Below, piece by piece: positions 20,492-31,727 of a stretch of 31,727 nt of DNA. Position 1 is the first letter of the stretch. Every line of letters starts with the position of its first letter. The stretch is from the IMG/VR virus record IMGVR_UViG_3300044641_000537, positions 1 through 31,727 of that record; one strand, written 5' to 3'. The position numbers and the translations under genes are program-made. The notes below the pieces were generated by a model. The model was given only the letters and a program-made list of their open reading frames with translations. It had not been told where the DNA came from and did not search any database. This DNA comes from a virus.

Positions 20492-20658
20492 TGGGCTGGA
20501 TTTTTGCGTGCGTGCTGGTGGGTTTGTTATTGCCCATGCTTGGGTTGCTGTATGTGGACATATTGGAAGCAAAGCATGAAGTCAGGCAACAGCTTGAGAA
20601 GGTGGAAAAATTAAGACGCGAGATTGAACAGGAGAAGCGTAAACATGACAAAACATGA
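20368..20658 (+). CDS. Type II membrane protein with coiled coil
   Basis: This 96-residue protein lies in a different frame and shares its first 124 bases with the upstream gene. AGAGG lies eight bases before the ATG. The N-terminus is basic and Pro/Gly-rich (1-35). One membrane span follows at about 42-63 ('GWIFACVLVGLLLPMLGLL'), and then a heptad-like charged helix (64-96). With the basic N-terminus inside, the helix would face the periplasm, which is the layout of an inner-membrane spanin subunit. The next gene, a lipoprotein, overlaps its end by 14 bases. The function is inferred only from architecture. Confidence 0.6.
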   Translation: MATAARGKKPPAKAGGSNSNYYIPPLPVAVAAPVKSLAADMMGWIFACVLVGLLLPMLGLLYVDILEAKHEVRQQLEKVEKLRREIEQEKRKHDKT

Positions 20659-20848
20659 ACTTACATTGCTGGCGCTAACTGTTTGCATTGGTATCCTTTG
20701 CGGTTTGCTGACTGGTTGTGCAGATCGTTTTCGCTATCCATGCCAAGACCCTAAGAACTGGGAACTTGATGAGTGCAAGCCGCCAATCTGCACTGCCACT
20801 GGCACTTGCCCAGAACAACTTGTTAAACCAGAACAGGAGAAAAAGTAA
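20645..20848 (+). CDS. Small phage lipoprotein
   Basis: ATG 20645 is preceded by AGGAG at 10 bases, better than the in-frame TTG at 20624. The 67-residue product has a signal peptide and a lipobox L-T-G-C at 22-25, so C25 would carry the lipid. The mature part is short with four more cysteines (C33, C44, C49, C55) and the pattern 'RYPCQDPKNWELDECKPP', which I recognise from small lipoproteins of environmental phages near lysis genes. It overlaps its upstream neighbour and is coupled to the next gene (TAATG). It may act in the outer membrane during lysis or superinfection exclusion. Confidence 0.75.
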   Translation: MTKHELTLLALTVCIGILCGLLTGCADRFRYPCQDPKNWELDECKPPICTATGTCPEQLVKPEQEKK

Positions 20849-27019: not shown

Positions 27020-27184
27020 ATGACAAAAGAACAGATTATCAGATTGGCGGGCTCACAGAGTGAGCTTGCACGTATTTTGGGTATCACTAGGGCGGCTGTA
27101 AATCAATGGCGGCAGATACCTGAAGGTAGACTTTGGCAACTCAGGGCCATTCGCCCACAATGGTTTTTAACGGAGGAAACATGA
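27020..27184 (+). CDS. Cro-like helix-turn-helix repressor
   Basis: The 54-residue product has a Cro-type helix-turn-helix at about residues 11-31: 'GSQSELARILGITRAAVNQW'. The 'ITRAAVNQW' recognition helix is like those of many short Cro and YdaS-type proteins. Cro proteins are dimeric repressors that turn down early transcription in lambdoid phages. It is the first rightward gene, divergent from promoter B and followed by replication genes, the classic cro position. No larger CI-type repressor is found beside it. Its TGA overlaps the ATG of the next gene. No ribosome site is visible, which fits a leaderless mRNA. Confidence 0.82.
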   Translation: MTKEQIIRLAGSQSELARILGITRAAVNQWRQIPEGRLWQLRAIRPQWFLTEET

Positions 27185-27330
27185 AAAAAACACTGATTGC
27201 AATTTGGATTGCGGTATCAACCACAACGGTCTGGGCGGCTTGTTCGACACATACTTACTATGCAAATGGCAGGTATGTAACTTGCACAACCTGTTGCTAC
27301 GGAAATAATTGCAATACAAACTGTTATTGA
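27181..27330 (+). CDS. Secreted cysteine-rich miniprotein
   Basis: The 49-residue product has a strong ribosome site (GGAGG, five bases before ATG) and a clear signal peptide: basic MKK, a hydrophobic core to residue 18 and cleavage expected after A19 (V-W-A). The mature peptide of about 30 residues has six cysteines (C21, C35, C38, C39, C44, C48) in a Thr/Asn/Tyr-rich context ending 'CNTNCY'. It would be exported and probably folded by disulfides in the periplasm, although metal binding is possible. I have seen similar short sequences in environmental phages but know of no function. It is coupled to the Cro-like gene (ATGA), so it is an early product. Confidence 0.75.
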   Translation: MKKTLIAIWIAVSTTTVWAACSTHTYYANGRYVTCTTCCYGNNCNTNCY

Positions 27331-27431
27331 TATATAGTTGAGACACGGCTACCTTTAGCGGGGGAAAAGGCGATTCATCACCGTCCTGCCGATGTTTCTT
27401 TTTGTGATGATGACCAATGATGTGAGGTTCT

Positions 27432-28199
27432 ATGCACTACTATCAGTTCAATATAGGTGACTACAAAAGTCATACTGAACACCTTTCCGAAATGGAAGAT
27501 TTGGCCTATCGGCGATTGCTCGATTGGTACTATCTACACGAAAAACCCATCCCACTTGACAGCAACGAAACAGCAAGACAAATTCGTATGCGTTCGCATG
27601 GCGATTGCATTGCATTGGTATTGCAAGAGTACTTTGAGCGCACAGCGGATGGATGGATACATCACAGGGCAAATGCTGAGATTTTGAAGGCTGGCGATAG
27701 GTCTCAAAAGGCAAGTGCCAGTGCCAAAGTTCGATGGCATAAGAGTTCTGATGCGAACGCATTGCAGTCGCAATCCGAACCCAATGCTACACAGAACACA
27801 GAACACATTACACAAAACACAATAGATATTTATTTGTCTGACGACAAATCTGAGTCAGCAAAAAAATTACCAGACTGTGAACACAAGGGGGTCATTGAAC
27901 TTTACCACCAATGGTTACCAACCCTACGAAAGGTCGAGGTCTGGAACGCAACAAGACAAGGTTATTTGCGGCAAAGATGGCGGGAAGTTGCTGAAGAGCT
28001 GGCGCAGGAAAAGCCGATTGATACTGCCCATGTTTTGAATTGGTGGGGTGATTTTTTTCAGCACATTGGAAAAAGTAAATTCCTGACTGGAAAAGTCAAC
28101 AGCAAGGATGGTCGAGCATTTACTGCCGATCTTGAGTGGATTTTGAAACCAAGCAATTTTGCAAAGATCATTGAAGGGAAATACCATGGCAATCACTAA
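27432..28199 (+). CDS. DUF1376-containing replication protein (O-like)
   Basis: The 255-residue protein starts with the DUF1376 signature 'YYQFNIGDYKSHTEHLSEM' and 'EDLAYRRLLDWYYLHEKPI' (residues 3-42). A low-complexity linker follows, with Gln, Ser, Asn and Thr (100-135). The C-terminal region ends 'FTADLEWILKPSNFAKIIE', a motif found in phage replication initiators and primosomal proteins. It probably recruits host replication proteins to the phage origin. A GAGGT site precedes the ATG. It is the first large gene of the rightward early block, as O is in lambda. Its end overlaps the next gene by 14 bases. Confidence 0.85.
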   Translation: MHYYQFNIGDYKSHTEHLSEMEDLAYRRLLDWYYLHEKPIPLDSNETARQIRMRSHGDCIALVLQEYFERTADGWIHHRANAEILKAGDRSQKASASAKVRWHKSSDANALQSQSEPNATQNTEHITQNTIDIYLSDDKSESAKKLPDCEHKGVIELYHQWLPTLRKVEVWNATRQGYLRQRWREVAEELAQEKPIDTAHVLNWWGDFFQHIGKSKFLTGKVNSKDGRAFTADLEWILKPSNFAKIIEGKYHGNH

Positions 28200-30290: not shown

Positions 30291-31509
30291 AACCCTACAA
30301 ATCCACACTCCAGAATGGTGCTTGCCATTGCTTGAGCCAGCCCGATACAAGGGCGCATGGGGTGGTCGGGGCAGCGGTAAGTCCCATGCCTTTGCCGAGC
30401 TGATGATTGAGGAACACATCATCGACCCCAAGCGCAGAAGCGTTTGCGTGCGTGAAATACAGAAGTCCCTTAACCAATCGGTCAAACGCCTGCTGGAGAC
30501 CAAGATTGAGGCCATGAATGCGGGGGCGTACTTTGAGGTACAGGATGCGGTCATCAAGTCCAAAAAGGGCGATGGTGCGATTATTTTCCAAGGGATGCAG
30601 AACCACACCGCCGACAGCATTAAATCGCTGGAAGGGTACGACTGCGCTTGGGTTGAGGAAGCCCAGTCATTAAGCCAGACCAGCCTTGACCTACTGAGGC
30701 CAACAATCCGCAAGCCCAACAGCGAACTGTGGTTTACATGGAATCCAAGGCAGCAGTCTGACCCTGTGGATTTTCTACTGCGGGGGCCAGAGCCGCCAGC
30801 CAGTGCAACGGTCATCAAGGTGAACTTTGGTGAAAATCCGTGGTTTCCACAAGTCCTGAAGGACGAGATGGAGTACGACAAACGGCGTGACCCTGACAAG
30901 TATCAGCACGTTTGGATGGGTCAGTACTTGCGAAACAGCAACAGCAGGGTATTCAGAAACTGGAAGATTGACGATTTTGAAGCCCCAGCAGAGGCCATTC
31001 ACCGACTGGGTGCGGACTGGGGATTCTCTGTTGACCCGACAGTTTTGGTGCGATGCCACATTATTGGGCGCACCCTGTACATTGACTATGAGGCTTACAT
31101 GGTGGGCTGTGAGATTGTCAACACGCCTGAACTGTTCATGCAAGTGCCAGAAGCTGAGAAGTGGCCTATCGTTGCCGACTCAGCCCGACCAGAGACCATC
31201 AGCCACATGAAGCGCAACGGCTTTCCCAAGATCATGACAGCGGTCAAAGGGCCAAAGTCTGTCGAGGAGGGCATCGAGTTCTTGAAAAATTACGACATCG
31301 TGGTTCACCCTCGATGCATTCACACCATTGACGAACTGAGCCTGTACAGTTATAAATCAGACCCATTGACGGGGCGAATCCTGCCCCAGCTTGAGGACAA
31401 AAAGAATCATGTGATTGATGCTTTGCGATATGCGTGTGAGGGCATCAGGCGGTCAGCGGTCACAAAACCAGCTACATTTACGCCATTGCCCAATGTCAAA
31501 CGCTGGTAG
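30283..31509 (+). CDS. terL: Terminase large subunit, PBSX/Terminase_3 type
   Basis: The 408-residue protein has the ATPase Walker A motif 'GGRGSGKS' at 27-34 and Walker B 'CAWVEEAQ' at 121-128. A coupling-type segment 'WFTWNPRQQSDPVD' lies near 150-163. The RNase H-like nuclease has D245 in 'GADWGFSVDPT', D299 in 'VADSARPE' and D379 in 'HVIDALRYAC'. It pumps DNA into the procapsid and cuts it. The next gene in the circular genome is the portal, to which it docks. The gene ends inside the assembly overlap, and its C-terminal codons recur at bases 3-62. Confidence 0.97.
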   Translation: MGKTLQIHTPEWCLPLLEPARYKGAWGGRGSGKSHAFAELMIEEHIIDPKRRSVCVREIQKSLNQSVKRLLETKIEAMNAGAYFEVQDAVIKSKKGDGAIIFQGMQNHTADSIKSLEGYDCAWVEEAQSLSQTSLDLLRPTIRKPNSELWFTWNPRQQSDPVDFLLRGPEPPASATVIKVNFGENPWFPQVLKDEMEYDKRRDPDKYQHVWMGQYLRNSNSRVFRNWKIDDFEAPAEAIHRLGADWGFSVDPTVLVRCHIIGRTLYIDYEAYMVGCEIVNTPELFMQVPEAEKWPIVADSARPETISHMKRNGFPKIMTAVKGPKSVEEGIEFLKNYDIVVHPRCIHTIDELSLYSYKSDPLTGRILPQLEDKKNHVIDALRYACEGIRRSAVTKPATFTPLPNVKRW

Positions 31510-31727
31510 ATAATCGCCCCAAAAGGACAAATATGGCACGAATACCCAATGACCAACGCCTTGCCAATCTGCACGCTGAAGCACTGCGGCAGTTCAACGA
31601 CATACAAACTGCGCTGCGGGATGAACGCCTGCAATGCCTGCAAGACAGACGGTTTTATTCTCTCTGCGGCGCACAGTGGGAAGGCCCATTGTGGGACCAG
31701 TACGAAAACAAACCCAAGTTTGAGGTC
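31448..31727. repeat. Terminal redundancy of a circular contig, right copy
   Basis: This is the second copy of bases 1-280, with six substitutions and no insertions or deletions. All six fall in the portal coding part, and five are silent. The differences are too ordered to be random sequencing error. They suggest that the assembly joined reads from two close relatives in one population. Confidence 0.95.
31533..31727 (+). CDS. Portal protein, 5' end (partial, second copy)
   Basis: This is the start of the portal gene repeated at the right end, open to the end of the window at codon 65. It differs from the complete copy by one residue (Ala instead of Ser at position 15) and five silent changes. 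It is not a second gene. The complete gene at 86-2146 gives the description. Confidence 0.92.
   Translation, partial: MARIPNDQRLANLHAEALRQFNDIQTALRDERLQCLQDRRFYSLCGAQWEGPLWDQYENKPKFEV

Follow-up and report, generated by a model that had tools for sequence, protein, structure and literature searches.

An optional phage gene encoding a predicted exported six-cysteine mini-protein that may act at the host envelope

An optional gene carried by uncultured phages encodes a 49-residue pre-protein, composed of a predicted signal peptide and about 30 mature residues that hold six cysteines, and its product belongs to a large family that is unnamed in the family libraries searched. The member analysed here is encoded by the IMG/VR virus record IMGVR_UViG_3300044641_000537, all 31,727 nucleotides of which form the stretch of DNA under analysis (the window). 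We favour, with a probability of about one half, a reading in which the mini-protein is an accessory early envelope factor directed at a conserved, virion-independent target, such as a host envelope component, on which its effect would most likely be inhibitory. In general terms, the mini-protein probably helps the phage to control the host envelope. To our knowledge, early exported phage proteins are few, and the known ones (Llp, Cor and Spackle) are each linked to a single phage group or receptor. The present mini-protein is tiny, easily synthesised and found on hundreds of uncultured phage contigs with different virion types, and its target would reveal a common vulnerable point of the bacterial envelope. 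The features of the region are the following:

27020-27184, + strand: Cro-like HTH gene, 54 aa (P22_Cro PF14549, E 4e-11; phrog_409), with a 4-nt overlap with the mini-protein gene
27181-27330, + strand: gene of the putatively exported six-cysteine mini-protein, 49 aa (open reading frame, family and purifying selection)
27181-27237, + strand: predicted signal peptide, residues 1-19, with predicted signal peptidase I cleavage between VWA and AC (A-x-A type site in relatives)
27238-27327, + strand: mature part, 30 residues, predicted three-stranded beta-meander with implied disulfides C2-C19, C16-C29 and C20-C25 (AlphaFold2 and strand register)
27309-27314, + strand: TTGCAA, likely -35 box of a downstream RNA promoter, in codons 43-45 (third-base bias of codon N24)
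27333-27338, + strand: TATAGT, candidate -10 of the downstream RNA promoter
27342-27410, + strand: int-alpA RNA (RF02996), a separate small RNA gene (36.8 bits against a gathering threshold of 35.8)
27432-28199, + strand: next gene, DUF1376 primosomal/replication-type protein (PF07120, 8.7e-22; phrog_9327)

The gene and its family

The open reading frame at 27181-27330 is translated as MKKTLIAIWIAVSTTTVWAACSTHTYYANGRYVTCTTCCYGNNCNTNCY*, with the cysteine spacing C-x13-C-x2-CC-x4-C-x3-C. A GGAGG Shine-Dalgarno sequence lies immediately 5′ of the gene, and the ATGA of its start overlaps the stop of the Cro-like reading frame. An earlier note on this DNA had described a six-cysteine protein of this pattern at these positions, with a strong ribosome site and an ATGA overlap with the Cro-like gene; the translation and the upstream sequence agree with it on every count. 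The string ATGA is uninformative by itself, being present in every member with an ATG-AAA start; a true -4 overlap with the upstream gene was found in 24 of 37 Cro, 16 of 16 RHH-like and 14 of 23 winged-helix-like contexts.

Relatives of the mini-protein are encoded on at least 554 IMG/VR stretches, and other query sequences recovered relatives on 535 and 478 stretches. The low-complexity filtering of BLAST probably conceals more of them, because the matches end at the cysteine-rich half. A single relative was found in the 84,980 genomes of GTDB, on a 5.3-kb Burkholderiales MAG contig (L160) that carries cellular-type genes and where it stands beside WYL and MerR regulators. A cellular origin of the family was considered and rejected, since an HMM search covering some 800 related genomes returned this already known contig and weak matches only, the latter being apparently signal-peptide or chance matches. 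Comparison with Pfam, PHROG and NCBIfam gave no match above cut-off, no relative was found among PDB sequences, and literature searches on exported cysteine-rich phage peptides yielded no report of the family. Two GenBank records from Manatee Spring contain the gene unannotated, a hypothetical gene on the opposite strand being annotated there instead; such an arrangement is seen in MW202462.1 (L082), with the unannotated gene at positions 755-898.

Members share a signal peptide followed by the motif [AS]CxTHTxxx[NG]G[RK]x[VT]TC[TQ]TCCxGxxCxT[NT]C[FY]. In 121 distinct mature coding sequences, T4, T18 and T27 are invariant, as is every one of the six cysteines, and synonymous sites are saturated (pS 0.79). 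Between close pairs, dN/dS reaches 0.41 in the signal peptide but only 0.095 in the mature part, which is under strong purifying selection. The family as a whole lies far beyond chance.

Predicted export and fold

The signal-peptide pattern is uniform in 96 distinct members: all have Ala at position -1 and one to three Lys/Arg within positions 2-6, and position -3 is occupied by V, A, T or L. Export, as the earlier note had proposed, is predicted for all of them. The strict lipobox [LVI][ASTVI][GAS]C was found in none of the 96 members, and a lipoprotein reading was rejected on these cleavage-site statistics together with a clade that lacks the first cysteine. Elsewhere in the window, a lipoprotein-like reading frame of the lysis region with six cysteines (20645-20848, + strand; MTKHELTLLALTVCIGILCGLLTGCADRFRYPC...) is possibly Rz1-like.

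Structure prediction, which the earlier note had suggested, was performed with AlphaFold2 using 80 relatives as the alignment. The mature peptide was confidently modelled as a three-stranded meander (strands 2-9, 12-21 and 24-29) with a mean pLDDT of 92.2 and a pTM of 0.42, bearing in mind that AlphaFold can be over-confident for a 30-residue peptide. The turns of the meander are formed by NG at 10-11 and G/N at 22-23, and counting the antiparallel register off these two turns implies the three disulfides given above. Insertions found in L127, L273, L278 and L101 map to the same two turns. In a variant clade (L170, L393, L407, L429 and L444), M replaces C2 and S replaces C19, and a pattern scan aimed at the C19S form found no member without just one of the two. 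Such joint natural loss would provide an independent check on the predicted C2-C19 pair; it may represent a single event, as the mature parts of the clade are closely alike. The model of this four-cysteine variant retains the meander.

A Foldseek search of the PDB with the model gave nothing below E 1. In BFVD, A0A6J5M8Q5, a 49-aa protein of an uncultured Caudovirales phage, matched with 73% identity, a TM score of 0.94 and an rmsd of 0.5, and is a member of the family with the same predicted fold. Its automatic name 'Lipoprotein' is ill-fitting for a family without a strict lipobox, one variant of which is devoid of the first cysteine. A knottin (inhibitor cystine knot), suggested by the C-C-CC-C-C framework, was also considered and rejected: it needs pairs C1-C4, C2-C5 and C3-C6, whereas the register of the model points to C1-C3, C2-C6 and C4-C5, and the joint loss of C1 and C3 likewise opposes it. 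Judged from the register only, the threonine pairs T4/T17 and T6/T15 would lie on one face of the mini-protein, for which an ice-binding-like reading was considered.

Gene contexts, carrier phages and putative role

The upstream same-strand gene was scored at about 158 loci, many of them from related contigs, using a simple ORF caller. The mini-protein gene lies directly behind small regulators at 76 of these loci (Cro-like at 37, a 124-aa winged-helix-like protein at 23 and RHH-like at 16) and behind SSB-like or acidic-tailed proteins of ERF/YqaJ recombination operons at 39, the labels winged-helix, RHH and, in part, SSB-like describing the sequence appearance of proteins without a library match. 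These contexts are still diverse when counted as distinct proteins. A terminase small-subunit-like gene is found just downstream at about 14 loci, and a few copies are near an SU10-like portal, so that the gene is not exclusively early. Most homologues nevertheless occupy early regions rather than virion operons, as expected from the early gene described in the earlier note, the timing being read from gene order. Identical mature peptides with different signal peptides occur behind Cro and SSB-like genes, behind Cro and winged-helix genes, and behind Cro and RHH genes. Because the upstream partners vary, the view of Cro and the mini-protein as a functional pair was rejected. The gene is optional, only 5 carriers having been found among the 68 DUF1376 loci whose upstream sequence was long enough.

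A second family of putatively exported mini-proteins, with four cysteines (CPxxxxYxCx(8)GKxxCGC) and a mature part unrelated to that of the six-cysteine family, immediately follows Cro-like genes in L214 (3409-3540) and L324 (4001-4132), again overlapping them by -4, and is found behind SSB-like genes in L328, L329, L332 and L333. Because two families use the same slots, their arrangement suggests a dedicated early export position for mini-proteins. A bolder version, which we regard as a tentative proposal, is that a standard early 'export slot' is common to phages of unrelated virion types and can take unrelated disulfide-stapled mini-proteins of the six-cysteine and four-cysteine kinds, which act on a conserved host-envelope target. 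If true, phage takeover or exclusion at the cell envelope would have a widespread layer that is so far uncharacterised.

The window is an approximately complete P22-like genome of about 31.4 kb that encodes P22-type ejection proteins. Its positions 1-280 and 31448-31727 overlap over 280 bp with 97.9% identity, and the record, though classed linear, is probably a complete circularly assembled genome. Portals in the carrier records are of at least four types: strong P22-like portals were recognised in 12 of 51 records (window included), HK97-type portals in 5 of 40, T7-like connectors in 3 of 40, and an SU10-like portal was also seen; no contractile sheath was found. A tyrosine integrase was found neither in 50 carrier records nor among the annotated proteins of the window, and no S24-type repressor was found in the 51 records formed by the 50 carriers and the window. 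The carriers appear to be mostly lytic-looking uncultured phages, apparently lacking lysogeny genes. The earlier note had placed the gene next to the repressor, which these records do not support, and had looked to the gene neighbours for linkage to immunity or exclusion regions. Since neither S24 repressor nor integrase was found, it is early regulators and genes of recombination that the gene is linked to, rather than an immunity region.

In the reading we favour, the optional early cassette would encode the ~30-residue mini-protein together with the first regulators or recombination proteins, and, going by gene order, the product would reach the envelope early. Computation predicts export by the Sec route, cleavage by signal peptidase I and folding in the periplasm into a three-stranded beta-meander with a three-disulfide staple. 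The folded peptide would then bind a conserved component of the host envelope, or some other target common to competing phages, with inhibition as the likely effect, e.g., a second phage would be excluded or an envelope response blocked. A conserved envelope target or a shared target appears most likely because phages whose heads and tails are unrelated carry one and the same peptide. This reading best accounts for the gene's early position, predicted export, strongly conserved mature part, optional presence and spread over virion types. Superinfection exclusion and inhibition of host defence are both possible roles; exclusion would perhaps be of a new type, and receptor-specific exclusion is less likely.

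A known case of receptor-specific exclusion is T5 Llp, an early small lipoprotein that blocks FhuA from the periplasmic face (PMC9586334). In the style of Llp or of T1/phi80 Cor, the peptide would bind, on its periplasmic side, the outer-membrane receptor that its own phage uses, and would thereby shield infected cells and debris from further adsorption. The mini-protein would share with Llp and Cor the features of a small, early, exported, disulfide-containing envelope protein of lytic-type phages, and yet we consider this mode rather unlikely. Unlike Llp and Cor, it is no lipoprotein by sequence, is predicted to form a 30-residue beta-meander and shows no detected sequence similarity to them. 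Moreover, blockers should vary with the receptor, whereas phages with unrelated virions and portals have almost the same mature sequence, and identical mature peptides recur in different gene contexts. Receptor-blocking and Spackle-type modes both predict a tie to one receptor or tail type, and no such tie was seen.

A role as periplasmic inhibitor, directed against a host defence or an envelope-stress sensor and not at the exclusion of other phages, would agree with the early export position and with a surface whose conservation across phages suggests a conserved host target; we think it improbable, no defence partner or counter-defence neighbour having been recognised in the neighbourhoods read. 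T4 Spackle offers another precedent: this exclusion protein is periplasmic, is made early and inhibits gp5, the tail lysozyme (PMC7677548). A mini-protein that likewise inhibits a tail or ejection component of superinfecting phages, such as a virion lysozyme, would also be early, periplasmic and small, and the window phage does have P22-type ejection proteins. Spackle itself binds the T4 tail lysozyme and is roughly three times the size of the mini-protein (its PHROG profile, phrog_1586, has 96 positions); members of the main family gave no match to this profile and the four-cysteine family matched with E 0.1-0.4 only, spread over the signal peptide. The portal types differ among carriers, which makes a shared tail target unlikely unless it has a very common fold, and leaves this mode with a small chance.

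Six cysteines in 30 residues, with one conserved His, could also serve as a thiol or metal sink that upsets periplasmic disulfide formation or metal balance, an interference that the earlier note had listed among its candidates. This is very unlikely, and the idea loses ground to the variant clade, which drops one predicted pair cleanly and keeps the rest, a behaviour that fits structural disulfides better than a six-cysteine metal cluster; the cysteine positions also fit a predicted beta-sheet with cross-strand disulfides. A secreted signalling peptide (arbitrium-like) or a lysis-timing antiholin, which the predicted secretion and the proximity to a Cro-like gene in some genomes might evoke, is hardly credible given that no lysogeny genes were detected, that the mature peptide varies hardly at all, in contrast to phage-specific signals, and that holin or lysis genes were not seen adjoining the gene.

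RNA elements downstream of the gene

In the window, the int-alpA RNA sits between the mini-protein gene and the DUF1376 gene. The two were considered as one system, and this was rejected: 41 of the 63 relatives that lack the mini-protein have the RNA, and many carriers are without it. The int-alpA RNA is a neighbour and not part of the function of the mini-protein. At least five further RNA-like elements occupy the same position in relatives, with no Rfam match at that place in the loci tested. The 3′ end of the mini-protein gene likely contains the -35 box of the downstream RNA promoter, as judged from a third-base bias in one codon. At codon N24 of the mature part, the third position is T in 75 of the 79 genes that precede an RNA element (type A, B, D, E or F), against 11 of the 45 genes with no downstream RNA or with type C (Fisher p about 1e-16, the sequences being not fully independent).

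Type B (L028:6151-6275, L082:899-1022 and relatives) is a candidate structured RNA downstream of the gene that ends in a T-run terminator, and 5 of its 35 predicted pairs show compensatory changes. Type C (L114:370-455, L129:2240-2325 and relatives) is a small intergenic RNA-like element, GGCCGAAAGCGGATG...GACGCAGCGAGTAGGCC, in which 6 of 12 predicted pairs carry compensatory changes.
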